From the NCBI GenBank assembly GCA_020630975.1, contig JAHDID010000004.1, forward strand, positions 56,177-120,176: a DNA stretch of 64,000 nucleotides, given 5' to 3'. The position numbers were made by a program, and so were the translations under genes. Numbering within the stretch: position 1 is the stretch's first letter; each line of letters starts with the position of its first letter. Shown piece by piece: positions 11,524-33,409 of this stretch. The notes under the pieces are model-generated. The model saw only the letters and a list, made by a program, of their open reading frames with translations. It was not told where the DNA came from and ran no database searches. The stretch comes from Verrucomicrobiota bacterium (lineage in GTDB: Bacteria > Verrucomicrobiota > Verrucomicrobiia > Verrucomicrobiales > DEV007).

Positions 11524-11545
11524 ACTAAAACAAAGCGATAAATGA

Positions 11546-12973: not shown

Positions 12974-13075
12974 AAGAAAGAAGGCTCTAGAATGGCGAAA
13001 TTTGATAAAGATGCAGCGCAAAAAGGCAACTTTATCGAACGCAAAGACGCACCGAAGCTAAAGATGATTTTCTAG

Positions 13076-14350: not shown

Positions 14351-14362
14351 CAAACCACGCTC

Positions 14363-17330: not shown

Positions 17331-18845
17331 TCACTCAGCCTTAGCCCCTCCAAATGTCGCAGTGATCTGGTACTTCGTTTGCAGATGGGCATGAGCCCGG
17401 CTGGCGGCTTTGCTCTTGGGATGGTTTCGGCACGTGGACTGAAAGGCTTTGATGGCATTTTCTCGCTGACCGGCCTCTTCGTAGGTATGACCCATTTGAT
17501 AAATCGCTTCAGCCGCATGTGACTCCGAGGATTTTAGTTGGTTATACAGGCCTAGTGCTTCATTCCAGTCCTTGAGTCGTCTGTGACACTGAGCCATACG
17601 GAGGTAGTTGGCTGGGTAGCGATCGGTCTGGCGGTAAGCTTGAACGGCGTTTTTGTAGTCTTGCTCGGCCTCGTAGCACTCGGCGATGGCCCATAGGTAA
17701 TCATCGACACGATCAGCATCCTCCTGAGTCAGCTCACGGTAGAGATCGATCGCCTCTTGGTATTTTTTCTCCTCACGAAGCATGAGGGCAATGTGCGATT
17801 TCGCCTTGGCTTGATCTTCAAACTTCCGATAAGTGCTACGAGCTTTGTCTCGCTCGCCTACCGACTTGTAGTAGCCAGCCAACTGACCTAAGCGCGCATC
17901 GGATGCACCAAGCAGCTTCTCGGCACGCTCGATGGTTTTCAATAGTGCTTCACCATTCTTTGCAGAAGTGTGCAGCCCGATGATTCTGCTAAAGGTTTCA
18001 TTCGCTCTCGCCAGATTAGAATCACTATCCAAATCGTCAGGTATCGATCCATCCAGTTGCTCGATCAATCCCGAGGCAAATGACTTAACCTTTGCCTCGC
18101 CGCCCTCCTGCCTCAGCAGATGCCGAATCCCTTCGCTACCGTATTGGTAGATATGATGATCCAAAGAAGAACCCTGGTAAGTCGTCTGCAGGGCTCGGAT
18201 CACTTCTCTGGTATTGCCGCGATAGGCATGATACCTAGCCAGCTCGCGCGAGGCTGCTGCGCAGACATCTTTCGAGGCATCGGATCGCTCCGTCTTATAG
18301 GTGAGCTCATCGAGCAGCTTCAGTTGTGCCACATCGTCTTGAGCGGTTCTAGCGATCTCGAGTAGGCTCGACCGGGAAAACACTGCCAGACTACTTTCGG
18401 CATCGTTGTCGATCACGGCGCGAAAAGAGAGTTTGGCTTTCTCGACCTCACCCATATCCAGATAGGCTCGAGCGATCAGATACTCTGCTGTTTTTGCCTC
18501 CACAGCATCCGGCCAGTAGTCGATGACGGACTGGAAGCCTTCGCGGATAGCGGTGTTTACTTTGCGTAGCTTCACCAGACATTGACTCCACATCAGCTGA
18601 GCGTACGCCGCACCACTACTGGACTCGTAGAGAGACAGATATTTCTCGTACTCAGCCATGGCGATCTTGTACTCCTGCTTTAGATAGTACTTTTCCGCGA
18701 CCTTCATCTGATAGCGCTCCACTTCTCGCATAGTCTGGTAGCTCTCCATCGGGATCTGCTCGACGGGTGACAGTCTTTGAGCCTGCACCACCGAAGCCCA
18801 GACAAAGAAACAGATCCACGGAAAGAACTTGAGAGAAGTTTTCAT
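17331..18845 (-). CDS. TPR repeat secreted protein (last gene of the ExbBD operon)
   Basis: 504 residues from ATG 18843-18845, which overlaps the stop of the DUF4159 gene as ATGA, a strong sign of translational coupling. An in-frame Met 10 codons upstream lies inside that gene and is less likely. Residues 1-23 form a signal peptide ending at VQAQ. The rest is helical with repeated TPR-type units (for example YLKQEYKIAMAEYEKYLSLY; EKKYQEAIDLYRELTQ; EDYKNAVQAY-like; EEAGQRENAIKAFQSTCRNHP). TPRs bind proteins, so it is likely a periplasmic scaffold of the complex coded by the operon. No catalytic residues are seen. Confidence 0.85.
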   Translation of the reverse strand: MKTSLKFFPWICFFVWASVVQAQRLSPVEQIPMESYQTMREVERYQMKVAEKYYLKQEYKIAMAEYEKYLSLYESSSGAAYAQLMWSQCLVKLRKVNTAIREGFQSVIDYWPDAVEAKTAEYLIARAYLDMGEVEKAKLSFRAVIDNDAESSLAVFSRSSLLEIARTAQDDVAQLKLLDELTYKTERSDASKDVCAAASRELARYHAYRGNTREVIRALQTTYQGSSLDHHIYQYGSEGIRHLLRQEGGEAKVKSFASGLIEQLDGSIPDDLDSDSNLARANETFSRIIGLHTSAKNGEALLKTIERAEKLLGASDARLGQLAGYYKSVGERDKARSTYRKFEDQAKAKSHIALMLREEKKYQEAIDLYRELTQEDADRVDDYLWAIAECYEAEQDYKNAVQAYRQTDRYPANYLRMAQCHRRLKDWNEALGLYNQLKSSESHAAEAIYQMGHTYEEAGQRENAIKAFQSTCRNHPKSKAASRAHAHLQTKYQITATFGGAKAE

Positions 18846-20263
18846 TTTTCGTCCTGATTTTGCGTGTCCAGCCATTTGTTATATTCGACGTGAGCGTAGA
18901 AGATGACATTCACCCCTAACTGGTAACAGTACTCCCAAATCTCGCGCTTCACTTTGGCATGATCGTCGGCCCAAGCATCGCCGATATCCCCTGGGTGGTA
19001 ATAAGCGACGAGCCTACCGTCGACCACCCAGCCCCACGCGTCCTTGCCCCCGTGTGGAGCGACGTAGGGCAGAAAGGGGATCGGATTGGGCGTGGTATGA
19101 ATCGGGTGATCCAGAGGCACACGTATCGGCTTCACCTTCGGGTAGATGCGCTGCATCAGCCTAAAAAACTGCTGTCCCCAGCCAGCACTGCCGCCATTGT
19201 CAGCGAATAGCATCCCATGTTTGTCAGTCAGGTACTCCCCGAGGATCTCGACTTCACTATCAGAAACGATCAGATTGCGCTGACCGGTGATGTATAGAAA
19301 TGGCGGGCTCTTACCACGCGGGAAATTTTTCAATTGAGCGATCTTACGTGACTCGGGTTTCTTGGCGACCTTGTGCCCCGTGCGAATGCCATATTCCATC
19401 AGCATATTCACATCCGAGCTACCAGAGAAATCCTGATCCCAATCGCCGCCCTGGTACTCGAGCCGAATAAACCGCACCTGCCCGCGATTCGTACCTCCAG
19501 AGAAACCAGAGCCCTCGCCTTGTCCATAGCCGACCTGATAAGCGTGTTTAGTTAATTCCTGAAACTGGAGCTTAATATCTTCGATCGGTGGCGGGTTGAA
19601 GATGATCGAGCTAAAAGGATTGATGACGATCTTCTTCTTCACCACCTTCTCGATCTTTATCTTCTGCCTCTGGGCCTGCTCGCCACCTCCCGCTGGCATC
19701 TCATACAGCTCGCGACAGCCAGGCAGATTGGTCATCAGCAACATCAGCACCACAAATAGCACGGTGTATAACACAAACGTCCATAGCGATTGATCTAGCT
19801 TCCTCGACGAATCGCGGAAGTACCACGCATTGAGATTGGTCAGATTCCACACTTTACCATTGCTGCCGTCGCTAGCTACCAATTGCCACTGCCTAGCTCT
19901 GCGATCGACCCAGTGGATGGCCAAAACTAACCCGACAAGAAATAGCAGAAGTAAACCCACGGACGCCAGCCAATGGGTCAGCGCACTCAGACCCAATAAC
20001 CCACCTGCCAGAATCAAAATCTGCCATGTGAGGACATAGATCGATAGATACAAGAGCACCCTTCCCTGCCCACTGGAGACCGTTTTGATCTTCCGAAAAA
20101 ACCACAGCCAGCCCAAGAACGTGAGTCCTGCAAAGCCAGCCCAATGAGCGACATCGGGTAATAGGTAAAAGGATGTCCAATCACACCACAAAAATGCCCA
20201 CACGGCCCAGAACAGTAGGGCAGGCCAGTGATTTTTGAGCAAGGCGTTCTTCATTTGCGGCAA
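18842..20263 (-). CDS. DUF4159 domain membrane protein
   Basis: 473 residues. The N-terminal 215 residues hold about six membrane helices. The C-terminal soluble half starts with a Lys-rich patch and an NPFSSIIFNPPP segment, then a DUF4159-type domain (about 270-470) recognised by RFIRLEYQGGDWDQDF, a PPFLYITGQ segment, LFADNGGSAGWG and a WGWVVDGRLVAYYHPGDIGDAWA segment. DUF4159 resembles glutamine-amidotransferase-like folds and is common next to TPR/ExbD genes in verrucomicrobia and planctomycetes; no activity is known. It lies 13 bp after the single-pass protein and overlaps the next TPR gene by 4 bp. The fusion of membrane helices with the domain suits a role in the envelope. Confidence 0.85.
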   Translation of the reverse strand: MPQMKNALLKNHWPALLFWAVWAFLWCDWTSFYLLPDVAHWAGFAGLTFLGWLWFFRKIKTVSSGQGRVLLYLSIYVLTWQILILAGGLLGLSALTHWLASVGLLLLFLVGLVLAIHWVDRRARQWQLVASDGSNGKVWNLTNLNAWYFRDSSRKLDQSLWTFVLYTVLFVVLMLLMTNLPGCRELYEMPAGGGEQAQRQKIKIEKVVKKKIVINPFSSIIFNPPPIEDIKLQFQELTKHAYQVGYGQGEGSGFSGGTNRGQVRFIRLEYQGGDWDQDFSGSSDVNMLMEYGIRTGHKVAKKPESRKIAQLKNFPRGKSPPFLYITGQRNLIVSDSEVEILGEYLTDKHGMLFADNGGSAGWGQQFFRLMQRIYPKVKPIRVPLDHPIHTTPNPIPFLPYVAPHGGKDAWGWVVDGRLVAYYHPGDIGDAWADDHAKVKREIWEYCYQLGVNVIFYAHVEYNKWLDTQNQDEK

Positions 20264-20276
20264 ACGATCTGGCTAT

Positions 20277-20798
20277 CTACTCCAAATCCTTGAGGATATC
20301 GTCGTCAGCACTGTCTAGTGGATTGAGATTCGCTGGCGCTTCCTTCACGTCACTAACGCCGAGCGTATCGGCAGCGACTTGCTTATCGTCTGCACTCAGT
20401 TCTGGCATCTCAGCCTTTGCAGGATCAGCGATCTCAGGTGTCGGTTCTGGGGTAGGAGCTTTAGTTTCCGCAGCGGCATCCTGATCTCCGGCAGCCACTT
20501 CTGCCGGAGGGCTCAAATCCGTAGCTGCAGAATTGCGGACGAAATTATCATAGCCCCATACCGCTGCAGTCCACGCCACGATGATGAATCCCAAAAGCAA
20601 CGCCGACTGAACCAAACTCTTGAACAAACTACTATTGGCCACTTCCCCTAGCACTTCTTTAGGTGACTTACCACGCATCTGGGCTAGCCAGCCCATCAAT
20701 TCATCTGCCGCTGCAGCGCTATTCGCCCTCAGCTTGCGCACATCATTCACCGGGCTCGACAGAGGTGTCAGATCTGGCTTTTGGTCTTCTTCTTCCAT
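20277..20798 (-). CDS. Single-pass membrane protein with acidic Pro/Ala-rich tail
   Basis: 173 residues. A soluble, mostly charged N-terminus (1-65), one membrane helix (about 66-87, LVQSALLLGFIIVAW) and an acidic, Pro/Ala/Glu-rich, probably disordered C-terminal half. The topology (short cytoplasmic part, one helix, extended periplasmic tail) recalls TonB-like or TolA-like linkers, but no TonB C-terminal domain is present, so that is only an analogy. It sits 26 bp after the second ExbD gene and 13 bp before the DUF4159 gene in the operon. No database family was recognised. Confidence 0.75.
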   Translation of the reverse strand: MEEEDQKPDLTPLSSPVNDVRKLRANSAAAADELMGWLAQMRGKSPKEVLGEVANSSLFKSLVQSALLLGFIIVAWTAAVWGYDNFVRNSAATDLSPPAEVAAGDQDAAAETKAPTPEPTPEIADPAKAEMPELSADDKQVAADTLGVSDVKEAPANLNPLDSADDDILKDLE

Positions 20799-20824
20799 GG
20801 TTGATATAGAAAATTTTTCTTCAG

Positions 20825-21238
20825 TTACTGAGTGGATTGGTCCTCTCGATTTAGTACATGCATCAGATCACCTCCCGCCATACTGATCGCTTCGATCGCA
20901 GGCTGAAACACATCGGCTGTGGCTTCTTTATCGACCTTCAGCAGGACTTTTCGCTTTCCTGGCTCTACGCCTTCCAGCAAGCTCTCTAGGGCAGCGGGCA
21001 ATGCATCTGCACTGATGGATTGCCCGTTGAGATAGAGTTTCCGATCGCCATCGATGACCACGCTAGCCAAAGCCGCACCGACCGGCTCGACTTCGGGCGT
21101 CAGAGCGGGCTGCCACTGCAGATGGCTATCGTCCACCGCCCGCGCCAAAATGACGAAAAAGATCAGCAGCAGAAAGGCGATGTCCCCCATCGCTGTGGAC
21201 GGGACATCGGCTTCGAATTTCTTTCTCGGTATCTTCAC
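20825..21238 (-). CDS. exbD: ExbD/TolR family protein (second copy)
   Basis: 137 residues. It has the ExbD plan: a short cytoplasmic tail, one membrane helix (about 18-36, MGDIAFLLLIFFVILA, whose Asp is the usual proton-path residue) and a periplasmic domain ending with a KVDKEATADVFQPAIEAI motif. ExbD works with ExbB to couple proton flow to motion in the periplasm. It follows the first ExbD with only 3 bp between them and was probably made by duplication. Two different ExbD-type proteins per ExbB is common in such clusters. The family call is firm; what it drives is not known. Confidence 0.9.
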   Translation of the reverse strand: MKIPRKKFEADVPSTAMGDIAFLLLIFFVILARAVDDSHLQWQPALTPEVEPVGAALASVVIDGDRKLYLNGQSISADALPAALESLLEGVEPGKRKVLLKVDKEATADVFQPAIEAISMAGGDLMHVLNREDQSTQ

Positions 21239-21241
21239 GGG

Positions 21242-21664
21242 CTACTGTACGATTTGGACTTGTTCTTGCTCGACCTGGATGGTGATGATGCCGCCACCGG
21301 CCTCGATGGCTGTGGTCGCTGTGATCCATCTCTGGTAATTAGTTTCCTTCGAGCTCTTCACGATCACGACACGATCGGACTCCTTAGTCTTTCCGGCCAG
21401 TGACTGAGCGACTTTATTCGTCAAACTCGCAAGTGGCACCAGATCGCCATTCACCATGACCGTTTGCTCGGTCAGCGAGACTTCGAGATTTTGATTCTGC
21501 TCGCTAGATTCGTTATTCGATTCGCTCTTGGGGATATCCTGAAGCTTACCCGTATCCGGCTGGACCGAGGCGCAGACCAAAAAGAAAATGATCAAAATAA
21601 ACGCAATATCGGGAGCCGCTGTGGAGGGCGGTTCGACCAATAACTTTCTGCGCTTCAGATTCAT
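21242..21664 (-). CDS. exbD: ExbD/TolR family protein (first copy)
   Basis: 140 residues from ATG 21662-21664; a longer reading would overlap the ExbB gene by 47 bp and lack sense before the conserved KRRKLL start. The single membrane helix (about 16-34, APDIAFILIIFFLVCAS) holds the conserved Asp. The periplasmic part has a Gln/Glu/Asn-rich linker and an ExbD-type domain with VVIVKSSKETNYQRW. It lies 10 bp after ExbB and 3 bp before the second ExbD. It is expected to join ExbB in a proton-driven stator-like complex. Confidence 0.9.
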   Translation of the reverse strand: MNLKRRKLLVEPPSTAAPDIAFILIIFFLVCASVQPDTGKLQDIPKSESNNESSEQNQNLEVSLTEQTVMVNGDLVPLASLTNKVAQSLAGKTKESDRVVIVKSSKETNYQRWITATTAIEAGGGIITIQVEQEQVQIVQ

Positions 21665-21674
21665 TATCCCAGAT

Positions 21675-22382
21675 CTACTTATCCCGAGCTCCCAAGGTGA
21701 GCTGTAGCGATATCGCCTCAACCAACTCCGCCGCTGACTGCTCGACCTCTAGTACGAATTGATTGATCACGCTCATAAAGTAGTTAAACGCCATGTAGGC
21801 TGGAATACCGATGATCAGACCAAAGCAAGTGGTCAAGAGCGCCGTCTGAATACCCGACGCAGCCGCCTCGACAATATTTACTTTGCCCATGGTATCTACG
21901 ATATTGGCAAAGGAAACGATCATCCCCTGCACCGTTCCTAAAAAGCCCAGCATCGGTGCCACACTGGAGACTGTCGCTAGCAGCGGCAAGTGCCGCTCAA
22001 GAGCCGCCACCACATTCACCCCATAGGCCTCCATATTTTTCGTTACCTGATCTTCGATTCGGTTGGTCTCGTAACCTAGCTGATGCAGGACCAGATACTT
22101 CCTCAGTCCATTGCCCAAGACAGCAGCCACAGGTCCATCAGATTCATCACAGAGCGATATCGCTTCGTCGATATCCCCATTAGCTAGTCGATCGAGGACG
22201 CCCTGGCGGACTTCATCACCACTGGTATCGAGTATCTTCAGACTGCGCCACCGCTCGATGATGACGGCTACCGCTAGGACTCCGAGTAGGAGGATCACCC
22301 ACATAAAGACACCACCCTGAATCAGATAGCCTAAAGCCCCCGACTCGAGAAAGGATGAAGCTGCGATAAATGTTTCTTCCAT
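21675..22382 (-). CDS. exbB: MotA/TolQ/ExbB proton channel family protein
   Basis: 235 residues with three membrane helices (about 20-42, 130-155, 172-200). The conserved core AVVAALERHLPLLATVSSVAPMLGFLGTV-like segment before TVQGMI and the Gly/Ala-rich third helix (TALLTTCFGLIIGIPAYMAFN) define the ExbB/TolQ family. It forms the inner-membrane proton channel with ExbD. The gene begins 9 bp after the end of the giant TPR gene. No TonB, TolA or TolB gene is in the window; the giant TPR proteins are the likely partners by context. Confidence 0.92.
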   Translation of the reverse strand: MEETFIAASSFLESGALGYLIQGGVFMWVILLLGVLAVAVIIERWRSLKILDTSGDEVRQGVLDRLANGDIDEAISLCDESDGPVAAVLGNGLRKYLVLHQLGYETNRIEDQVTKNMEAYGVNVVAALERHLPLLATVSSVAPMLGFLGTVQGMIVSFANIVDTMGKVNIVEAAASGIQTALLTTCFGLIIGIPAYMAFNYFMSVINQFVLEVEQSAAELVEAISLQLTLGARDK

Positions 22383-22391
22383 ATTGTTGTA

Positions 22392-25300
22392 TTATTGTTC
22401 CATCTCTACCGCCTGAGCCTCGCGCTCAAACTGCTGGATCATCTCCGGCAGAGCCAGTCGACCGCGTGCGTATTTGGCTGCATCGGACTCTGGGAAATCC
22501 CAACGGCAACGATTGTATCTTTGGAAAGCGACACGATTGTCTCGCCCCTGGCGATAGCTTTCCCCAGCCCAGAATAAAGCCTGAGCGGAAAGGTCGTCCT
22601 CGGGGAAGCGTTTGATGAAATCATCGAATGCCTCACCTGCAGTCTTATACTCTTCGTTCTTGTAGTAACACTGACCGACTCGAAACGCCATCCTCGGTGC
22701 CCACTCGTGATTCTCGAACCGTTCTAGGAAACGACTACCCACCTGGGCAGCGACTTCGAAGTCTTCCTTCTTGTAAAAGTGATCGTTGATCCGGATCATC
22801 ACATTAGATATCAGTGGATTCTGCGGATAGGTCGCAGCGAGAGTCACATAGGCCTCCAGCGCTTCGTCGAGTCGCTCGGCTTCCTCATAGCACTGCCCCA
22901 ACTTGTACTGCGAGTCGGCAGCCAGCGAGTGGTCGGGATATTGATTGACAATAGTCTCGTAGGCTTCGATCGCTTCGTCCCAATTCTTTAGTTCCTGCGC
23001 AAACTGCCCCAGCAGGTAAGCGACTCTGGGAGCATACTTTGGATCGGGATAATCCTCACTCAGTTCACGCAGTATACGCTGACCATTTTTCAGGTCGAGA
23101 TCGGACTCTTCTTTACGTCCCAACTTCAGATGGCTCTTGAATAGCTCGAAATAACTCTCTGCGATGTGAAATTGCGTCTGAATCGCCAGATCCTCGTCCC
23201 CATAGATCTTGGTAAAGGCGGCGACGTCCCCGTCCGTACCATCCGATACCGGCACACTGACCTGATGCTCGACCGGCTCACGACCATCAGTAGGCGACTC
23301 GTCGATGTAGGTGATAGTCAGATTCTCGCCAAAAAACACCTCTAGTTCCGGTTTCTCGACATCATAGTTCTCAGCGACTGGCTCACGGCTGGCTTTTAGC
23401 TTAAACGAGCCGGTAAACACCCCGCTATGACTGAGCGTCTCCTCCAGCTTTATCGTCTCTTTCTCACCACTCGGCGAGGTAACCGATAGAGTGATAGCAT
23501 CTCGCTCACTCGATACATCGCGATCAGGATCGCTGAGCCGGAGAAATAAGCGCTCCCCTACCTGGAGTTTTTCCACTGCCACCTCGTAGGAGTTATCAGT
23601 CGCTACGAGGTCAGCTGTGCCACGCATGGTAGCACTATCCGTGTGGGTGACAGCATCCTCTACCGCAGGCTCGACATCTAGGTAGGTGACTTTAATACGA
23701 TTGGCCCCTGTTAAATTCAGAACTCCCAGCATACCTGGATCGATCAGTTCGGTCAGGCTGGCCCAGTCCGGCGGCAGCACTCGGCCCAGCGCAGTATCGC
23801 GCTGACCAGGCTCCAGCGGCACGATACGAGGACTGCTACCGTCGCCTAAGCGCATCGCCACTTGCCCGACGAATCTACCACGATGTAGAGCTGGGTTTGC
23901 CACATCGGTATCCGTATCGGCCAGATCCGAAAAGGCAGAAGAAATCATACAAGCAACCTCGACAGGTGGAACTTCTGTATCGCCACCATCTATCGATACC
24001 GCTACGACCACTTCACTTTGTGAGTTACGCGCGGCGTCCTCATCGTAAACCTCGATCGTCAACGGCACCTCGTAGGCCACGCGCTTGGTATCGCTTTCAG
24101 ATGCGGGCAGGTAAGCAACAGTCGCGTTTCGCCCCTCATCTGCTGGTGCCGTGTAGGTCGTCTCGATGATACGCATCTTCGCATCAGTTGGCTCGCGCAC
24201 ATAGACGGCACTCGTTCGATCGATCGCGTGGCCAGGGAATGTATTTTCCCGATCTCGATAGGTAAAGAACAGCTGATCGCCAGGACCGACACTCAAGGTC
24301 GACTCTGCTGTATCTGGACTAGCCTGAGAATCGCGGCCGATTGTATCGATCTCGATCTTGAATACACCCGATGTCGATTCCGTTTCAGTCGCCATTAACT
24401 GCTGAGGCTCACCGTTGCCTAGCTGCAAACTGATCGACACCTGATCACGCTGCCCTGTGGTGTCCATATCGTAGTCGACTATCTTTAATGTGATGCGCTC
24501 ACCGGGATCGATACGCAGCAGTTCCTTCTCCATCTCATCGACCTGACCATTGGCCTGACGGACAAAGTCGTAAGCGATGGAAGAGATTGTACCATCATAG
24601 TAGGTGGCCTGGAGCTGCTGGCTGATCGCTCGGTTACGCGGCTCACCACCATTGGGCAGCTCATCGATATACACAGAATCGATCCGATCTCCAGGAGTGA
24701 TCTCCAGCACATTATTTCCCGATAGCTGCAAGATGTCCGCATCGGTAGGAATGAACTGACCCTCCGGCCCCGATACTGATACCTGATTGATCGCTACTGA
24801 CTGGCCCAAATATTCATCGACCACCAGACGGACATGACGCAGTTCTCGTGGTTCGATAGCAAATTGCCAAAGACCGTCTTCACTCACACTCATCGTGCCC
24901 AGTGGGTAACTATCGATCGAGTTGAGATTAGCTACGAAACTTTGTTGTAGATCAAAGTCCTCACGGGTAAATGGTGTCAGGCGCACTCGACTGACATTAG
25001 GATTTTCCCGACTACGAGTGATGTCGATCTTTCTACGCGCAGAGTCCCGAGTCGAGGCAACGATTAGCACCTCGTGAATACCTGCCTCCAGATAGAGATC
25101 GACCTCGTGCTCCCTCTGCACCGCGACCATCGGCTGAATCATAAAATCATTCACCACGACTGCAGCGTGATCAGCCCGCAAACCTAGACGCACGGCTCCT
25201 GATCTAGGCTGGACCAAGCTACCTTGGAAAATAACCAGACAGGGATCCGCTTTGTACTTCCGCCGCTCCTCAGGATCAAACGGCAACTCTGTCGAGTAAC

Positions 25301-28300
25301 TGAGCGCATCGACCTCGTCAGTCTCGTGAGCTTCACCACTGCTGATCCTCTGGATCTGTTTCCAGTCATCGAAACGCTGGCCTTTCAGGTGCCAGACTCT
25401 GCGCGTCATTCTCTGAAACGAACCACTGATCTGCTCAGGCGCAGGGCGCTGCGGATGCTCCGCCAATGGATACCAGTATCGGCCGTCGTGACTGCCCTGC
25501 AGACGAGAGCGAACCGGTGCCTGATTGTCAGGATCAGGAGTGGAGAATGAGCCTTTATCCACTTGGCGAAGCTCCTTCAAATCAACTGAGAGAAACTTTG
25601 GCGTAACGCCATCTGGCTGGCTGACCCAGGCAGAGGATTCATCTTTATCTATCGCCATCAGCGGGCTGTGCTCGATCGCGGTATCCGAGGCTAGCGCTCC
25701 AGCAGGCAGATCGCTAGTCGCTATCGTCCCTTCGAATACCCCACTGTGCGAGCCGGTCTCTTTCAGCACCGCCTGCACCTCATCGCCAGACGATGCGGTC
25801 AGTTTGACCATCACCTGATCATTGCCATTAGTCGTATCCCTATCGAAATCTTTTACCTGCAGGTAGACGGGATTACCCGGTTTTATCTGATCTAGCGGAC
25901 GCTGCTCAGACAACCGCAGTTCGCCCTCCACAAGAGCGACCTCTCTAGCCAACCGGTCCGACTCGGTTTCTTCAGTCTCCTCGACCAGCTCGCTACTGGC
26001 CATGGCAAACTCTGCATCGGCAGCCAGACCGATATCTCCAGTCGTGAGTGGCTCAAACTGAAACTCGGATTTGAATTCATCGGGGTAATCCACTTTGATC
26101 AGATCTTGACCGCCGACTTCGAGAAAGCCATTGCCCACCTGAGGCTCACCTAGGACGGTTTCGATCTCACCCATGAATAGCCCTTTACCGGCACCTCCAC
26201 TGACGATGTAGACCTTTTCGCTATCGCCCCCTGGGTGAGTCGTCACCGCCACGGGGATGCGTGTGTGCCCGCGACTGATACCCAGATCAGAATCCTGCAC
26301 CACGATCGATAAGGCTCGACCGGGCTCGTGCCAGCGCTTCGACTCCTGGCCGAGACGACCAACCGTGCGCAGCAGATCGAGTTGCTCTAGGTAGCGCTGC
26401 TCGCCCCGATAGACTTCCGAGAGGTTGAACAGTGTCTCATTCGCCAGCGACACATCAGGCATTGAGCTCAGCACATCCTTAAAGATCCGACGCGCATCAT
26501 CGGTATTGCCTTTGCGACTCTCCAGTACACCCAGTAAAAACATACCCCGGATTCTGACCTTGGCGACTGAGCTAACCGAAAGCTCAGTAAAGGTCTGCTC
26601 GGCCTGGTCGAATATCTTCTGTGCCAGCTGCGTCTCGCCGATACCGAAACGAGCCTCGACTGCCTCTTCGGTCTCTGGGTAGCGATTGACTACCGTCGTG
26701 TATTCACTACGAGCGACTTCATAGCGCTTACTGCGATTGTAGTTGCGCGCGAGTAGCAGCTGCATCCTAGCCTTCTCTGCCGTAGTAAACTTTTCGCTCT
26801 CGCTGTGAGCGACGATCCATTTGCGCAGAATTGACTCGGCGCGCTCGTGATTTACCTCACCACCCGCTGCGATGTGAGAGTCTGCAGCAAATGCCACCAG
26901 CTCCGCCGGTAGTTCGAGTATAAACTCGTCAAAACGATTTCGATTTTCACTATAGGCATCGAGCGCTCGCTCTTGGTCGCCGAGCTTCAGGTGCACGCCT
27001 ATCTCGAGTAGCGGGGCCATCGGGTTATCGGCGCTGACCTCCATTCCCAGAGCACCCATCTTGCCATAGGCTTCGCGGATCAGGGCACGAGCTTTGTCCT
27101 GATAGTCGACACCGACATTGGTGATATTTGCCAACACACCTGTGCCGATGGCTGCCGCCTCAGCGTATTCTTTACGCCCGATGGCTTTCTGCGCCCACGC
27201 CATTAGGTAATTGAAGCTATTGCCATCGCTCTGCGACTGCAGCGAGGTGTGGCGATAGGCTAGCAGCCTCTGCATCGCTGGCATCTCGTGGCCTTGACCC
27301 TCCAGTAAGGACAGTCTACCCATCGCACTATCCCGATACATCTGCATCTGACTAGCCAGATCGTAGACCAAGTGTTTTTGCTCTGCGGTCCAGTCATTAC
27401 TTCGCTGAGCGGTCGATACCATATCAGCCACTGGGAAATACCAGCGCTTGAGCTGATAATCATCACGCGCCTTCAGTGCCTCGCGGCATACCTTTTCAAA
27501 ATTGGCGAAATCATTCTGCCGTAAGTATTGATTGGCTAAATAGGAGGCGAAATCTCCATAACCGTCACTGCCCGTATCGAGATAAGGCTTGAGGAAGTCG
27601 ATTCGCTCTTTGCCTTCTGGCAGTTTATTGGCGAGATCGATGACCGCTCTCCGATGATCGTACGACCAGGGCTCGCGACTCGCTGTGGAGCGTAGCCGCG
27701 CCATCTCCTCTTGTTCCATATCGAGGTGACGGATCTGATCCGTGATACTACCTGCGTAGCCATTTTTATGCATCGCTCTACTGCGCTGGCTATCGATCCA
27801 CTTCAGCGCACGCTGCATCATGCCTTTATCCTCGGCTTTGCGTGCGGCCATCGCAGCCAGATACCAGCCCGAGCTATCTTCCCGGTCGGCGTCGAGCTTT
27901 AGGATATGAGTCAGTGCAGCTCGGGCCTCGCTAGGCTCGCCATAGTTGGCAGCAGAGTCGAGCCAGGCTCTGGCGGCACTGTAGTCCTTAGCTTGCAGCT
28001 TAGCGGCCTCAGCATAGAATGGCACCGCTTCGTTGCGCCGACGATGATCACCGTGGTGATGGATATCGTGGGCATGCAGCTTCAGGAGGCGTAGTTTCTG
28101 GTCAGCAGTCAGATTCGTCTTTAAAAGTTCCACCCGCGGATTGTGACCTTTCATCCTCCCCTGCAGAGCGCTAGCCCAGCGCCGGATATTGGCATCGCGC
28201 TTCAGGCTTTCATACTGGCCACTGGCATACTTATAGCGCTTGCGGATTTCCTCATCATTACTCTTGCGGTAGGTATTCAGCCAGGTTTCTAGGGCTTTGG

Positions 28301-29687
28301 CGTAGTTTTGCTGTTGGCCATTGATTTTGGCATTTTCCACATAGCGTTGCACACGCTTCTGAAAATCTGCCTCGTCTTTCGCCTGTTCTAAGACGAAGCG
28401 TAGCGCACTACCGTACTCCGAGCCAGCATTGGGCAGCGGCTTCTTGTAAAGAACTTCACTTTCCAAAATACGTATCGCGGCCCCGACATCCTTGCGTCGG
28501 TCTCGATAGTGATTGAAGGCCATATAGTAATGATAGCGCCAGATCTCCTCCGGTTTTGCAGCTACCACATTCCGATAGATCGTCTCAGCCTGCTGCCACA
28601 GCGTCTCATCGTGAGTCCAGTTCAATAAGTTGCTACCATGATGCGCGTAGAGCTTCAGCGACTGCTCCATCGTCGCCAGTGCGGCAGGCAGATCTTCCGC
28701 ACGCTGCTGAGTCGCGGCAAGTGTGTGCAGTAGGTCTGAGTGAACTTTGTGACTTGGCCAGGGATAATTCTTTTGATACAGATCTACCACTTTCTGGATC
28801 TCTTTAGCATCGGCCTGAGAGTCGTACAGAGAGCGTGCCAGATGCTGATAACTGTGATACGTCGGAGTCCCAGCTGCGATCGCATCTCGATAAGGTTGCA
28901 CCGAGTTGGTGTATTGTTTCAGCGCGCGGTAGTTATCCCCAACATGGTGATGAATATCCCATAGCCGATGCTGGGGGATAGGCACCTTCTTGTCGAACAT
29001 CTTGCGGGCGATCTGATTACTCAGCTGATAGTGTCCCCCATAGGAGCGAGTCTGTATAAACCCATGATAGCCTACCTCTGCAGCGGTCCCATCGGCAGGC
29101 AACTGATCAAGTAGTTTCAGCGACATGTTTCCCAGTAGCTCCGCAGTGATCCCACTGCGCAAATCGCGATATAGCAGCATAGCCTTCTCCGCGTCCTGAA
29201 ACCCTCCATCTCGCAGTCCCCTGCTCTCCCACGACTGCCGATAGTGGTCGGCTGCTTCACGACGCTGATTTTCACGCTCGTAGACCTCGGCGATCATCCG
29301 ATGGGCGTCTGCTGCTCGCCTCGATTTCGGGTAGCGCTCCAAATATTGAAGAATCGTGGCTTTCAGATCGGCATTCTGGGAGGCAACGGCAAGGCCATCG
29401 ATCAATTTCCCCATCATCTCCTCGTGCTGCGGATGACCAGGCTGAGCTGCTGCGAAGATTTTACCCGTACGCACCAGTCCAAAGACTTGCCCCTCATCAT
29501 AGTAGGTATTGATCAGATCGATTAAGATGCGAGCGCCCTCATCGGAATTTTCCAGCGTCTGCCGGAGCTTGGCTTCCAGATCAGCAGCTTTACTGCCGCT
29601 AGCCTCCTGCGCCAGACTGTGTGGAAATATCACCAGTAGCACCGCAGCAAGTAAGGCACTGGTATAGATGGCTAGATATCGCTTCAT
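22392..29687 (-). CDS. Giant periplasmic TPR / Ig-like / discoidin-like protein
   Basis: 2431 residues from ATG 29685-29687, taken because a signal peptide (about 1-27) follows; a longer frame would overlap the preceding gene. Residues about 30-1150 are helical TPR-type repeats (many YP and RYP turns). Then come at least four Ig-like repeats (starting near 1272, 1729, 1880, 2042) with DxDxD motifs and an ETxSHSGVFxG-type end. Between the first and second lie an F5/8C-like patch (about 1335-1420, DKDESSAWVS) and a PA14-like segment (about 1480-1550). Residues about 2150-2431 are TPRs again (YPDHSLAADSQYKLGQCYE). It likely forms a long scaffold in the periplasm or cell surface. It is 22 bp after a 733-residue relative and 9 bp before exbB. 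No enzymatic motif is seen. Confidence 0.85.
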   Translation of the reverse strand: MKRYLAIYTSALLAAVLLVIFPHSLAQEASGSKAADLEAKLRQTLENSDEGARILIDLINTYYDEGQVFGLVRTGKIFAAAQPGHPQHEEMMGKLIDGLAVASQNADLKATILQYLERYPKSRRAADAHRMIAEVYERENQRREAADHYRQSWESRGLRDGGFQDAEKAMLLYRDLRSGITAELLGNMSLKLLDQLPADGTAAEVGYHGFIQTRSYGGHYQLSNQIARKMFDKKVPIPQHRLWDIHHHVGDNYRALKQYTNSVQPYRDAIAAGTPTYHSYQHLARSLYDSQADAKEIQKVVDLYQKNYPWPSHKVHSDLLHTLAATQQRAEDLPAALATMEQSLKLYAHHGSNLLNWTHDETLWQQAETIYRNVVAAKPEEIWRYHYYMAFNHYRDRRKDVGAAIRILESEVLYKKPLPNAGSEYGSALRFVLEQAKDEADFQKRVQRYVENAKINGQQQNYAKALETWLNTYRKSNDEEIRKRYKYASGQYESLKRDANIRRWASALQGRMKGHNPRVELLKTNLTADQKLRLLKLHAHDIHHHGDHRRRNEAVPFYAEAAKLQAKDYSAARAWLDSAANYGEPSEARAALTHILKLDADREDSSGWYLAAMAARKAEDKGMMQRALKWIDSQRSRAMHKNGYAGSITDQIRHLDMEQEEMARLRSTASREPWSYDHRRAVIDLANKLPEGKERIDFLKPYLDTGSDGYGDFASYLANQYLRQNDFANFEKVCREALKARDDYQLKRWYFPVADMVSTAQRSNDWTAEQKHLVYDLASQMQMYRDSAMGRLSLLEGQGHEMPAMQRLLAYRHTSLQSQSDGNSFNYLMAWAQKAIGRKEYAEAAAIGTGVLANITNVGVDYQDKARALIREAYGKMGALGMEVSADNPMAPLLEIGVHLKLGDQERALDAYSENRNRFDEFILELPAELVAFAADSHIAAGGEVNHERAESILRKWIVAHSESEKFTTAEKARMQLLLARNYNRSKRYEVARSEYTTVVNRYPETEEAVEARFGIGETQLAQKIFDQAEQTFTELSVSSVAKVRIRGMFLLGVLESRKGNTDDARRIFKDVLSSMPDVSLANETLFNLSEVYRGEQRYLEQLDLLRTVGRLGQESKRWHEPGRALSIVVQDSDLGISRGHTRIPVAVTTHPGGDSEKVYIVSGGAGKGLFMGEIETVLGEPQVGNGFLEVGGQDLIKVDYPDEFKSEFQFEPLTTGDIGLAADAEFAMASSELVEETEETESDRLAREVALVEGELRLSEQRPLDQIKPGNPVYLQVKDFDRDTTNGNDQVMVKLTASSGDEVQAVLKETGSHSGVFEGTIATSDLPAGALASDTAIEHSPLMAIDKDESSAWVSQPDGVTPKFLSVDLKELRQVDKGSFSTPDPDNQAPVRSRLQGSHDGRYWYPLAEHPQRPAPEQISGSFQRMTRRVWHLKGQRFDDWKQIQRISSGEAHETDEVDALSYSTELPFDPEERRKYKADPCLVIFQGSLVQPRSGAVRLGLRADHAAVVVNDFMIQPMVAVQREHEVDLYLEAGIHEVLIVASTRDSARRKIDITRSRENPNVSRVRLTPFTREDFDLQQSFVANLNSIDSYPLGTMSVSEDGLWQFAIEPRELRHVRLVVDEYLGQSVAINQVSVSGPEGQFIPTDADILQLSGNNVLEITPGDRIDSVYIDELPNGGEPRNRAISQQLQATYYDGTISSIAYDFVRQANGQVDEMEKELLRIDPGERITLKIVDYDMDTTGQRDQVSISLQLGNGEPQQLMATETESTSGVFKIEIDTIGRDSQASPDTAESTLSVGPGDQLFFTYRDRENTFPGHAIDRTSAVYVREPTDAKMRIIETTYTAPADEGRNATVAYLPASESDTKRVAYEVPLTIEVYDEDAARNSQSEVVVAVSIDGGDTEVPPVEVACMISSAFSDLADTDTDVANPALHRGRFVGQVAMRLGDGSSPRIVPLEPGQRDTALGRVLPPDWASLTELIDPGMLGVLNLTGANRIKVTYLDVEPAVEDAVTHTDSATMRGTADLVATDNSYEVAVEKLQVGERLFLRLSDPDRDVSSERDAITLSVTSPSGEKETIKLEETLSHSGVFTGSFKLKASREPVAENYDVEKPELEVFFGENLTITYIDESPTDGREPVEHQVSVPVSDGTDGDVAAFTKIYGDEDLAIQTQFHIAESYFELFKSHLKLGRKEESDLDLKNGQRILRELSEDYPDPKYAPRVAYLLGQFAQELKNWDEAIEAYETIVNQYPDHSLAADSQYKLGQCYEEAERLDEALEAYVTLAATYPQNPLISNVMIRINDHFYKKEDFEVAAQVGSRFLERFENHEWAPRMAFRVGQCYYKNEEYKTAGEAFDDFIKRFPEDDLSAQALFWAGESYRQGRDNRVAFQRYNRCRWDFPESDAAKYARGRLALPEMIQQFEREAQAVEMEQ

Positions 29688-29709
29688 ACGTTCAGAACTT
29701 TCGCAGATA

Positions 29710-31911
29710 CTAAAATCCTGCTTTGACCAGAGCATCGCTGATCTTCTTGGCTTCGGTAGCGAGATTACTCTCGGGAAATTCATTAATCAGCTGATCAAAC
29801 ATCCGACGAGCTTCGGCTCTGCGCTTGAGTCGATACAGGCAGCGACCGTAGTTGAATAAAATGACGTCGAGAAAGTTGGCATCCGGATAGTCAGACAAGA
29901 CATTTTCAAAGACATCGACAGCTCTAGAGTAGTCTTTTTTCTTGTAATAGAAATTCGCCATCTTGGCGACGGAGTCTCCGACTCGCCCGCTCTCGGGAAA
30001 TTGCTCATACACCTTTTGATACTCCACAAAGGCTCGTTCGTATAATGTCTCAGCCTGCTGCACCGGCGCCGCAGCAGCCATAGCCTCGTAGCTCTCTGCG
30101 ATACCGAACTGAGCCTCACCTTTCAGGGCACTATTGTTGAGACGTAGGATCGATCCATATAGCTGGATGGCCTCGGTGTGGTTATTCTGTTCACGAAACG
30201 CATTGGCCTGCTGTAGCATCGCCTCGTCTACGAATATCGAATTGGGGAATTCGCGCATCAGACGCTGACTCATGGCTACCGCTAGGTTGTATTCTTCCTT
30301 GGCGAAATAGGTACGCCACATCTGCACATAGGCATTTTCTAAAACCGACCCTCCTAGTTGGCGAGCTTCTGCCAATACATTTTCGGCAGTCGATAGAGAC
30401 TCCTCATACTTGCTATCAGCGTGCTTCTGCAAACCGAATTCTTTGTAGTGATTGCCAATATTAGTCAAAGCATCGGCCGACCGCAGTTGAGTCTGGATCC
30501 GCAGTTCGGAATCGCTGATCTCGGTACGAGTCACGCGCACGTTACCGAGATTTCCCTCGATACACCGGGCCTGAGCTACCAGCACCTGTCTATCGCCGCT
30601 GAGATTGACATCGTCGATATAGCGTAACCTAAGCTGATCGCCGGGCTGAGCCTGTAGCTTGGCGTCGCCAGACTTGGGTTCCGCTATATCTTCCACAGCT
30701 ACTAGCCCCCGAAAGACTCCAGAGTGCACGGCTGCCTGCTCGGCATCACCGGTTTCGACTAGAGTCGTTTGGTATTCGTCGATTTTGCGATACCTCTCGA
30801 TCTTGGGTTCCTCCAATCGACTAGCCAGAGGATCTCGCGCAGCTACGGCAGCGGCGATCTCCTCATCTATCTCTGCCTGCGATTTTTCCCGCCAGATCTC
30901 AGCGATTGCTTTTAGCTGATCTGCCTGATCGCTGCGGTCGAAGTCTGGGTCGGTGACTTCTAGGTAGGCATTTTTCCCGATGACCACTCCTGCCAAGGTA
31001 TCGCCATAGGAGCCATCTTTGATCTTCACGATGGCCGAGCCAACCACGTCGACTGTGTACAGTCGTTGCTGGTCGAATTTTTTATCGGCGGTCTGAGCAT
31101 CGACATAGTAGACCTCTACCTGGTCCTGCCCCAGCACCTCCAGTGTGCCATTGCCCGGAGTGGCTACCCCCAAAGCAGTAGGCAGCGAACCCAAAATCAC
31201 CTTTACCTGACGGCCGAGCGGATGGCAGATGACTTCCTCTTCATCGCCGCTTTTGGCGACACAGCGCAGTGTGATCGTTTCGTCTGGTTCCATCACGGCC
31301 AGATCCTGATCGTTGACCTTCACGTAGAGTCGCTTCCCCGCCTCGATTTTCTCTACCGAAGCATCCTGCTCGTTTAAAGCAGTGCCGACCTTTTCCAGAG
31401 CCTCGATGGCTCGGCTATAGTGCCCCAGCTTGAAGTGCCCTAGACCGATATAGTAGTAGGCATCGTTGACCTCGGGCATCGCTGGGTACAGTTCGATGAC
31501 TTCGCGCAGCTTTTTGAAAGACTGCCCATACAGGCGCCCCTCGTAAAAGCAGACACCTGTCTGCAGCGCCGCCTTGGCGCGTTGTTCCGTGTCGCGATTG
31601 GCCTCGTCGTCGACTGACTCGAAGTGCCGACGCGCCTCTTCGTAGCTACTCTTTTTCTCCAGCAGGAATTCGCCGATCCGCATGTGAGCCTCGTAGCGCA
31701 CTCGGCTATTGGGGTAGCGCTCGACCACCGATTTCCAAATCTCCAGAGCCTTCGATGTTTCATCGGCCTCCAGACGAGCATCGCCAGCCTGGAGCAGCTT
31801 CTTCGCCGCCCGATCCTCGACGATCGAGCCACGCTGCGCAGGAGCCTGCAGACACCACAGGCACAGGGAAACCACTGCAAAAAACACCTTAAAACCGGAA
31901 CAGGATATCAT
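29710..31911 (-). CDS. Secreted TPR / Ig-like protein (first gene of the ExbBD operon)
   Basis: 733 residues with a signal peptide (about 1-25). N-terminal TPRs (about 35-185), an Ig-like middle (about 190-460) and C-terminal TPRs (about 470-733, for example EYNLAVAMSQRLMREFPNS; KDYSRAVDVFENVLSDYPD). The middle part has EVTDPDFDRSDQADQ and AVHSGVFRGLVAVED, which match the repeat pattern of the giant protein downstream, so the two share ancestry. It starts the eight-gene operon; 211 bp with a strong hairpin separates it from the DUF1501 gene upstream. A protein-binding scaffold role is inferred from the TPRs. Confidence 0.85.
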   Translation of the reverse strand: MISCSGFKVFFAVVSLCLWCLQAPAQRGSIVEDRAAKKLLQAGDARLEADETSKALEIWKSVVERYPNSRVRYEAHMRIGEFLLEKKSSYEEARRHFESVDDEANRDTEQRAKAALQTGVCFYEGRLYGQSFKKLREVIELYPAMPEVNDAYYYIGLGHFKLGHYSRAIEALEKVGTALNEQDASVEKIEAGKRLYVKVNDQDLAVMEPDETITLRCVAKSGDEEEVICHPLGRQVKVILGSLPTALGVATPGNGTLEVLGQDQVEVYYVDAQTADKKFDQQRLYTVDVVGSAIVKIKDGSYGDTLAGVVIGKNAYLEVTDPDFDRSDQADQLKAIAEIWREKSQAEIDEEIAAAVAARDPLASRLEEPKIERYRKIDEYQTTLVETGDAEQAAVHSGVFRGLVAVEDIAEPKSGDAKLQAQPGDQLRLRYIDDVNLSGDRQVLVAQARCIEGNLGNVRVTRTEISDSELRIQTQLRSADALTNIGNHYKEFGLQKHADSKYEESLSTAENVLAEARQLGGSVLENAYVQMWRTYFAKEEYNLAVAMSQRLMREFPNSIFVDEAMLQQANAFREQNNHTEAIQLYGSILRLNNSALKGEAQFGIAESYEAMAAAAPVQQAETLYERAFVEYQKVYEQFPESGRVGDSVAKMANFYYKKKDYSRAVDVFENVLSDYPDANFLDVILFNYGRCLYRLKRRAEARRMFDQLINEFPESNLATEAKKISDALVKAGF

Positions 31912-32122: not shown

Positions 32123-33409
32123 CTAGCCGAATAAACCATCGATGACCTTCGCCTCTTTGCGCACCAGAGTCATAGGGCGGCCTTGTGGCGTGGTGATCTC
32201 GTGAGCGGGATTGATCCCCATGGCTGAGACAATACTGGCGTGAATATCGCTGACCTGGACGGGCTGCTCATCAGGCATAGCACCATCAGCATCGGAAGAG
32301 CCGATGACATGGCCGCCTTTCACGCCACCTCCTGCCATAAAGGCTGAGAAAACTCTAGCCCAATGATCGCGACCAGAGTTCTTATTGATCCGAGGTGTGC
32401 GCCCAAATTCAGACAGCACGACGACCAACGTCTTGTCCAGACGACCAGAGACAGCCAGATCCTCAAGTAGTGATCCCAACGCTGGATCCATAACCTCGCC
32501 ATGAGTGCGCATCGCTTCCTCGATGCCCTCGTGATTGTCAAAGCCACCCCGATTCACCTGGACGAAACGCACGCCTTTTTCATTAAGCTTTCTGGCCAGG
32601 AGAGCAGCACGGCCAAACTCGGTCTCACCGTAGCGGGCCAGAGTCTTGGGATCTTCTTTCTCCAGATCGAATACCGACAGTGCCGGACTCTGCATGAGAT
32701 CGACCGCATCATTTAGCGCGGTCTCAGCGGCCTTCATCTCGGAGGTGCTGAAGTTTTTGGTCTGGCGCAGATTCATCTTGGCGAGGATATCCAGCCGCTT
32801 GTTGCCATGAGCACTGTTGATACCTTCTGGAAAAGATAGGTAGGGATCGCGCTCGCCGGGACGGCCGACATAGTAGGCTTCGCACTTTTGGCCGAGGTAG
32901 CCTGCCTTTGGCGCACGCCCACCGATACTGACGAATGCAGGCAGATCACCCAGCGAATCGCGCTGACTGACGACGATCGATCCGATACCCGGGTGGATCG
33001 TACTATTCCCCGTCATCTGATAGCTGGTCTGGAGTTCGTAGGTCGCACGCCCATGATCACCGTTGGTTCCTGCTATACTGCGTATCAGCGAGGCATTGTG
33101 CATCTGTTTGGCTACGGTAGGGAAAATCTCGCTGATCTCGACTCCACTGGCACTGGTCTGAATGGGCTTGAAATATCCGGCGGTCGGGCGACCGGGCTTA
33201 GGGTCCCAGGTATCGATATGGCTCATCCCTCCACCATTCCAGAATAGGATAACTTGCTCCGCACTGGCCGACCCAAAAGTAGCTGGTCCAGAGGCCATAA
33301 GGTCGCGCACCGGCATACCTAGAAACGTGGCTAATGCAGCAGCTCCGCCTCCTTTTAGCATTCGTCTACGTGTGGCGTGGTAATCCTGACAACCGAATTG
33401 TTGATTCAT
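32123..33409 (-). CDS. DUF1501 family secreted protein
   Basis: 428 residues. The start has an Arg-rich hydrophobic signal (ATRRRMLKGGGAAALATFLG) of the twin-arginine type. The DUF1501 features are VILFWNGGGMSHIDTWDPKP, TNGDHGRATYELQTSYQMTG, HPGIGSIVVSQ, QVNRGGFDNHEG and VVVLSEFGRTPRINKNSGRDHW, which is the sulfatase-like alkaline phosphatase fold with probable metal ligands. It lies 63 bp after the DUF1549/1553 gene and is the second gene of that pair, an arrangement seen repeatedly in planctomycetes and verrucomicrobia. No substrate has been shown for the family. Confidence 0.92.
   Translation of the reverse strand: MNQQFGCQDYHATRRRMLKGGGAAALATFLGMPVRDLMASGPATFGSASAEQVILFWNGGGMSHIDTWDPKPGRPTAGYFKPIQTSASGVEISEIFPTVAKQMHNASLIRSIAGTNGDHGRATYELQTSYQMTGNSTIHPGIGSIVVSQRDSLGDLPAFVSIGGRAPKAGYLGQKCEAYYVGRPGERDPYLSFPEGINSAHGNKRLDILAKMNLRQTKNFSTSEMKAAETALNDAVDLMQSPALSVFDLEKEDPKTLARYGETEFGRAALLARKLNEKGVRFVQVNRGGFDNHEGIEEAMRTHGEVMDPALGSLLEDLAVSGRLDKTLVVVLSEFGRTPRINKNSGRDHWARVFSAFMAGGGVKGGHVIGSSDADGAMPDEQPVQVSDIHASIVSAMGINPAHEITTPQGRPMTLVRKEAKVIDGLFG

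Follow-up and report, generated by a model that had tools for sequence, protein, structure and literature searches.

Which protein is driven by an ExbBD-type motor that has neither TonB nor TolA encoded beside it? The question is raised by a minus-strand locus in a 64,000-nucleotide stretch of a Verrucomicrobiota genome (assembly GCA_020630975.1, contig JAHDID010000004.1, positions 56,177 to 120,176), hereafter the window. In this locus one ExbB/TolQ-like gene (F) and two ExbD/TolR-like genes (E and D) stand among genes for secreted tetratricopeptide repeat (TPR) proteins (H, G and A), a small single-pass protein (C) and a DUF4159 membrane protein (B). To our knowledge, a function has been assigned to only a few kinds of machine driven by ExbBD/TolQR. 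The present locus combines a transducer candidate of its own with a pair of distinct axle subunits, giant scaffolds with sugar-binding-like modules and a dedicated cytochrome/DUF1501 gene pair, in an order kept across two phyla. We propose, with about even confidence, that it encodes a proton-driven trans-envelope machine based on an ExbBD/TolQR-type motor, with B as the likeliest transducer, acting on scaffolds that carry TPRs and a carbohydrate-binding module.

An earlier sequence-only reading of this DNA had described eight minus-strand genes separated by gaps of 22, 9, 10, 3, 26 and 13 bp and one 4-bp ATGA overlap; all eight are present and the spacings match exactly. Its family assignments were upheld by profile searches, F matching MotA_ExbB, E and D matching ExbD, B matching DUF4159 and A, G and H matching TPR families. 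The limits it had set, 17331 to 31911, hold for these eight genes but end too early, because two further genes, P and S, are part of the conserved locus, which forms a unit of ten genes (Table 1). In the window both are on the strand of H, with spacings of 211 bp between S and H and 63 bp between P and S. The open reading frames (ORFs) start at 31911 (H), 29687 (G), 22382 (F), 21664 (E), 21238 (D), 20798 (C), 20263 (B) and 18845 (A). The start codon of B is a TTG, with an in-frame ATG at 20254.

Table 1. Genes and domains of the ten-gene locus, in window coordinates and in the order of reading on the minus strand
Feature	Coordinates	Strand	Description	Basis
P	33473..35995	minus	exported; PSCyt1, DUF1549 (PSCyt2) and DUF1553 (PSD1) domains; heme-binding CxxCH	Pfam
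S	32123..33409	minus	DUF1501 protein, twin-arginine-like signal	Pfam
H	29710..31911	minus	secreted TPR / Ig-like / TPR protein, 733 residues, CpoB/YbgF-type TPRs	
G	22392..29687	minus	secreted scaffold, 2431 residues from ATG at 29687: N-terminal TPRs, Ig-like domains, CBM32 with PA14-like insert, C-terminal CpoB/YbgF-type TPRs	
CBM32 / F5-8 type C fold of G	24759..25709	minus	residues 1327-1643, split by insert	
PA14-like domain of G	24939..25415	minus	residues 1425-1583, inserted in the CBM32 fold	
C-terminal TPR array of G	22524..23102	minus	CpoB/YbgF-type	Pfam, PDB matches, TIGR02795
F	21675..22382	minus	ExbB/TolQ-like motor subunit	
E	21242..21664	minus	ExbD/TolR-like axle subunit 1	
D	20825..21238	minus	ExbD/TolR-like axle subunit 2, GTG start	
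C	20277..20798	minus	173 residues, single-pass, acidic/Pro-rich, conserved C-terminal tail	alignments
B	18842..20263	minus	five transmembrane helices, disordered K/P-rich linker, DUF4159 domain	Pfam, AlphaFold model, fold searches
Helix 5 of B and following lipobox-like LPGC	19715..19804	minus	Tyr166, Gly182-Cys183	
DUF4159 domain of B	18887..19480	minus	class I glutamine-amidotransferase-like fold	
A	17331..18845	minus	secreted TPR protein, final gene	

The conservation of this arrangement was assessed with B as the query. A scan of named genomes returned 223 relatives, from which the best 80 loci were kept; these comprise 50 Verrucomicrobiota, 28 Planctomycetota and 2 unassigned loci according to the labels of the sequence records. 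All counts on 80 loci refer to this set, and neighbour counts cover only the loci with enough flank. The same gene order was found in other Verrucomicrobiota and in Planctomycetota: G-F-E-D-C-B-A was broken in none of the 80 loci over the two phyla, some members being missing in some loci. The same-strand neighbours of B were C in 71/73 loci, D in 65/68, E in 61/65, F in 52/58, G in 43/52 and A in 57/64. The arrangement is not due to chance. Since the order is kept in two phyla, the earlier idea of a new envelope machine is supported as far as a conserved ExbBD-type machine is concerned; its newness is not, a sibling class having been published in 2025 (PMC12204202).

Among the 36 genomes of relatives (the window's own included), B matches of at least 50% identity occurred in G004, G031, G026 and G029 besides the window's own. 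The first two contain all eight genes in the same order, G026 has D-C-B in that order on a short contig, and G029 has F to A, with no G in the 2.8 kb upstream of F, where the contig ends. H was matched in all 47 genomes picked from the 80 loci for having B, at only 28-31% identity in G454 (Rubritalea profundi). In 19 of the 80 loci, all of them Verrucomicrobiota, a fragment of H is located directly before G. In ten planctomycete loci (L052, L079, L081, L082, L085, L092, L107, L108, L110 and L117) H is on the same contig, with no more than 1.2 kb between its matched end and the running G frame, as worked out by hand; some of the remaining planctomycete loci have H on a different contig. In L095, a second P-S-H-G start comes directly after E-D-C-B-A, parts of two copies of the block thus standing in tandem.

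P and S were identified upstream of H. From the 47 genomes, 45 stretches were taken, of which four were too short and 41 were counted. P and S precede H on the same strand, with P directly upstream of S, in 37 of the 41 loci, and S lies 5-8 bp from H in 7 of the 37; the linked pair is absent from L221, L222, L225 and L230. Profile scores of the linked orthologues range from 718 to 1299 for P and from 623 to 912 for S, the top values coming from G004, whose S was in the profile seed, and unlinked copies among those compared score at most 310 and 264, respectively. As the linked copies far outscore the unlinked ones, P and S constitute a dedicated orthologous pair. Of the 37 linked P proteins, 20 have one CxxCH motif and 17 have two, and 34 of the 37 S proteins have a twin-Arg-like start. 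A one-to-one dependence of the B system and DUF1501 was ruled out, DUF1501 being far wider (196 of 387 Verrucomicrobiota genomes, vs 26 with any B relative) and giving no match at 1e-10 in 18 of these 26. Near the locus, on the plus strand (window positions 13076-16846), a DUF1552 gene followed by a PSCyt3/DUF1592-type gene forms a further type of cytochrome gene pair.

The motor subunits belong to their families by profile. F matches MotA_ExbB (PF01618) with 88.5 bits for a cut-off of 22.9; its best NCBIfam match is TolQ, at 103.3 bits vs an equivalog cut-off of 221, and ExbB reaches 64.2 bits vs 206.2. Both equivalog cut-offs being missed, F is neither TolQ nor ExbB proper. The GTVxG motif of its second transmembrane helix is kept in 59/59 F homologues. 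E and D match ExbD (PF02472) with 62.4 and 47.0 bits, respectively. The transmembrane Asp of E was recovered by pattern in 59 of 63 homologues and by eye in 3 more, one sequence being cut, which amounts to 62/62 of those covering the site. For D the corresponding figures were 66 of 70 by pattern, 1 by eye, 2 cut and 1 Asp-to-Tyr change (L111), or 67/68 of those covering the site. L111, from Rubritalea profundi, also has A in two pieces and no adjoining F or G was found there; decay of this locus is possible, although part of F could be masked by the runs of N at 7112-7136 and 7866-8155. A Zorya-type defence system was rejected: among the nine products scanned (all of the ten except G), only F matched ZorA, with 18.8 bits, and the other eight gave no match.

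B is a DUF4159 protein (PF13709, 99.8 bits for a cut-off of 25.9). Its AlphaFold model, obtained with 45 sequences, contains five helices (2-32, 37-58, 65-89, 93-132 and 154-178), which we read as membrane helices, then a low-confidence linker (181-260) and a confident domain with a mean predicted local distance difference test (pLDDT) score of 81.7. The closest solved fold to this domain is 4i66 (Hoch_4089), with a Z-score of 22.7 and a root-mean-square deviation (rmsd) of 1.8 over 186 aligned residues; the next matches, class I amidotransferases and others, have Z-scores of 9.4 and below. The domain is thus not a vWA domain, being DUF4159 by Pfam and nearest to 4i66. A D355-N-G-G-S loop without Cys is invariant in 45/45 B homologues and, as placed by strand order in the model, likely sits where the catalytic elbow would be. 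Amidotransferase catalysis by the domain was rejected on this ground. Tyr166 and Gly182-Cys183 are also invariant in all 45, and a lipobox-like [hydrophobic]-x-G-C ends helix 5 (19715-19723), so that this polytopic protein contains a lipoprotein-like signal within its chain. C has no family match in Pfam; the NPL motif of its tail is found in 61 of 73 homologues, and this conserved tail could dock on a TPR groove.

Divergent loci from the scan of 387 Verrucomicrobiota genomes, together with L043, were grouped as type II, the window's form being type I. In these, two or three TPR/Ig-like genes come first, then F-E-D, a gene for a small C-like protein and B, always in that order; most of the stretches end inside the first TPR gene, and the order covers the genes from there downstream. 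L248, L249 and L251 read H-G-x-F-E-D-C-B-X, three TPR genes come before F in L250, L252 and L256, and L043, L247 and L253 show other mixes. Directly after B, L043, L248, L249 and L251 encode a protein without clear Pfam family, and in L248 (15095-19001) a MoxR-DUF58-BatA/vWA set lies downstream on the same strand. The S-x3-H motif of TonB/TolA helices serves as a mark of motor-bound transducers in the available text of PMC12204202. We detected it in the last membrane helix of B in 18 of 27 unique type II sequences, with A-x3-H in one more; the count leaves out L255, whose S-x3-H columns match by spurious alignment. Of the 8 type II C candidates compared, 7 have a His in their single transmembrane helix. 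The two types of locus occur together in each of the genomes G029 and G347, at separate places. The suggestion that the type I Tyr is a position-for-position stand-in for the TonB His was dropped, since the two are offset, the Tyr preceding the His column by one residue.

The sequence-only reading had put forward the TPR giants or the single-pass acidic protein as the driven part. C is retained as a second candidate, and the TPR giants are not; because of the S-x3-H motif in sister loci, B is likelier to be driven. On these comparisons B would be the likeliest force transducer, and H, G and A likelier receivers or scaffolds.

These scaffolds show two kinds of relationship. Matches to tol_pal_ybgF (TIGR02795) reach 141.2 bits in G and 112.5 in H for a cut-off of 90.1, at the domain level only, and the best PDB matches of the G profile are YbgF (2xev) and CpoB (6g5s). 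Of 20 G homologues, 17 match Pfam F5_F8_type_C at E <= 0.01, the window's own G scoring 22.6, below the cut-off of 28.2. A model of G residues 1190-1845 (pLDDT 78.5) displays a CBM32 fold, a PA14-like insert and Ig-like domains. The first superposes on the CBM32 domain 4a41 with a Z-score of 17.6 and an rmsd of 1.8 (127 aligned residues, 19% identity), and the second on Cea1A with a Z-score of 13.0 and an rmsd of 3.4 (146 aligned); Foldseek also matches the insert to PA14 carbohydrate-binding domains. The Ig-like domains resemble those of an archaeal S-layer protein. The combination of CBM32 fold and PA14-like insert points to glycans. A few kb from the block (window positions 5605-13021), a 1996-residue protein with GH94 domains and a sulfatase are encoded, which are carbohydrate genes.

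The descent of the block was examined on wider samples. Among the 387 Verrucomicrobiota genomes, 26 have any B relative at 1e-20 and only G000 and G347 have the window's type by score; among 294 Planctomycetota genomes, searched with G453 as centre, 16 have any B relative and three the window's type (G453, G417 and G435, all among the genomes already matched for H). In an unrooted B tree of 82 rows, built with a quick method, with long branches flagged and phylum labels as in the sequence records, a single phylum change accounts for the 51 Verrucomicrobiota and 28 Planctomycetota rows, and none of 500 shuffles gave as low a number. Three rows were ungrouped (two phylum-unassigned and L043 as outgroup) and three duplicate-genome rows were left out. 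This single change suggests a block of old origin, passed on mostly by vertical descent and lost many times. Recent transfer between phyla was set aside on account of the clean split.

The data establish the genes and their order, their conservation, family membership and conserved residues, together with predicted folds; complex formation, proton coupling and the movement of B are parts of the proposal that we infer. By family homology F would form the pentameric wheel, and D and E, different ExbD-type subunits each with a proton-binding Asp, would make up the axle. B would transmit force, having four N-terminal transmembrane helices, a helix at the place of the TonB/TolA helix, a short K/P-rich linker and a DUF4159 domain that would be periplasmic; C, with its conserved acidic tail, may be a second transducer or a docking arm. 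B, perhaps with C, would exert a pull on the secreted TPR proteins (H, G and A) or remodel them, either in the periplasm or at the outer membrane, and P and S would act as dedicated extracytoplasmic partner enzymes or redox proteins. A role in polysaccharide capture, import or processing is the weakest step, and we rate it as less likely than not. In its boldest form, which we think unlikely, ExbBD-type rotation, a DUF4159 transducer and a lectin-bearing TPR scaffold of ~2400 residues would bring polysaccharide through the outer membrane without any receptor of the TonB/SusCD type, P and S acting on the cargo. If true, such a glycan machine would be one answer to the uptake of whole polysaccharides by planctomycetes, the mechanism of which is called unknown in the available text of PMC5520146. 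The locus provides a specific candidate for the handling of polysaccharides in both Planctomycetota and Verrucomicrobiota, and the DUF4159, DUF1501 and PSCyt proteins gain a physical partner to test.

Several observations weigh against this machine. Neither an outer-membrane barrel nor an OmpA-type domain was detected by Pfam in the ten products, and B and C have no TonB_C/TolA-type C-terminal domain in Pfam at E 0.01. In the window's clade B lacks the His of SHLS, its invariant Tyr (45/45) standing one residue before the His column, and the His is absent from 8 of the 27 type II B sequences as well (a subgroup of seven and L156). At the column of ExbB E176, which we take to be Glu in ExbB and TolQ in the numbering used here, F has V, T, I or Q in 56 of 60 aligned sequences and Glu in 4; the Glu is kept in the planctomycete loci L065, L079, L110 and L126. 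An adjoining G is lacking from 9 of 52 loci and an adjoining F from 6 of 58, and both were still missed on rechecking three forward frames; some loci are therefore split, eroded or gapped. The block is rare and patchy (2/387 Verrucomicrobiota, 3/294 Planctomycetota). No DUF1501 match at 1e-10 was obtained in 18 of the 26 genomes that have a B relative, P and S thus not being generally part of the sister form. Finally, promoter-like sites (9 vs 13.2 expected from shuffles) and terminator-like sites (17 vs 14.6) were no better than in shuffled sequence.

Other explanations account for part of these data. The motor might serve a Tol-Pal-like maintenance of the envelope, moving B or C and relocating CpoB-like TPR proteins and thereby keeping the outer membrane or the site of division stable. 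The locus shares with Tol-Pal a TolQ/TolR-type motor and a CpoB/YbgF-type TPR partner, the best NCBIfam match of F being TolQ (103 bits) and these TPRs being above cut-off in G and H; it differs by two different ExbD-type subunits, by the lack of a TolA C-terminal domain and by the giant size of its TPR partners. Neither Pal (OmpA-type) nor TolB was found among the ten products by Pfam at E 0.01, the sugar-binding-like modules and P/S are left without a place, and a distribution of 2/387 and 3/294 is unlike that of a housekeeping system. We consider such a role quite unlikely. Surface motility or adhesion, with the motor driving periplasmic TPR proteins that pull a surface adhesin, appears rather improbable too. 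The Agl-Glt gliding motor of Myxococcus pairs one TolQ-like subunit and two TolR-like ones with TPR proteins, a composition common to both systems, and the S-layer-like Ig domains and lectin-like modules of G would suit an adhesin; CBM32/PA14, DUF4159, P and S are extra here, P and S stay unexplained, and Pfam finds no outer-membrane barrel in the locus.

The place of P and S before H in 37/41 loci, 5-8 bp away in 7 of them, would agree with a motor that powers the export, assembly or maturation of such PSCyt cytochrome and DUF1501 proteins. DUF1501 occurs, however, in 196/387 genomes and a B relative in 26, so these proteins need no B system generally, and with 18 of the 26 lacking DUF1501 at 1e-10 we give this possibility little credence. 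A spare ExbBD set energising a TonB encoded elsewhere, the TPR genes being merely adjacent, is very improbable. The window's own genome contains 13 MotA_ExbB and 15 ExbD matches, four Plug-domain receptors and two TonB_C ORFs, one of them over the cut-off. The absence of a TonB or TolA partner stated earlier holds for the locus; elsewhere in the genome each TonB_C ORF has its own ExbB/ExbD beside it, which makes a shared TonB unlikely. The spare-set explanation also leaves aside the order of B, C, G, H and A kept over two phyla. The locus is like the Ton system in its motor subunits and in the S-x3-H helix of B in sister loci, and unlike it in having no TonB_C domain or receptor.

Turning back to a machine with B as transducer, the nearest published systems are loci of the Planctomycetes-Verrucomicrobia-Chlamydiae (PVC) group, in which a 2025 paper describes, in its available text, a TPR gene, tolQ, two tolR and a vWA 'transducer' of unknown function (PMC12204202). 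The class of proton-motive-force-driven, TPR-associated motors in PVC bacteria is thereby already in print. As far as that text goes, both kinds of loci have a TPR gene, one tolQ-like gene, two different tolR-like genes and a membrane-tethered Rossmann-type domain as proposed transducer; the published transducer has one transmembrane helix and a vWA domain, whereas B has five helices and DUF4159, and C, G, A, P and S are additional here. Compared with the DUF4159 family itself (PF13709; solved member 4i66), to which its domain belongs, B adds five transmembrane helices and a linker beside a motor. Among open-licence papers, we found no mention of a DUF4159 transducer, of the ten-gene block or of a CBM32/PA14 giant, no paper on DUF4159 or on DUF4159 with ExbD, and nothing on the locus among the papers listed for Planctopirus essential genes or in a broader search.

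The same genome holds further motors. In L194 (7112-12828), ExbB-ExbD-ExbD is followed, past one opposite-strand gene, by a 358-residue protein that has a His-bearing (ALH) transmembrane helix and matches vWA weakly (VWA_2, 22.6 bits vs a cut-off of 27). Judging by its sequence it is probably of the published vWA-transducer type, and given this resemblance the published class and the present locus probably coexist as different loci. In L188, L192 and L193, ExbB/ExbD genes lie beside genes for large TPR proteins (836, 958 and 1068 residues), so that the association of motor and TPR protein recurs in the genome.

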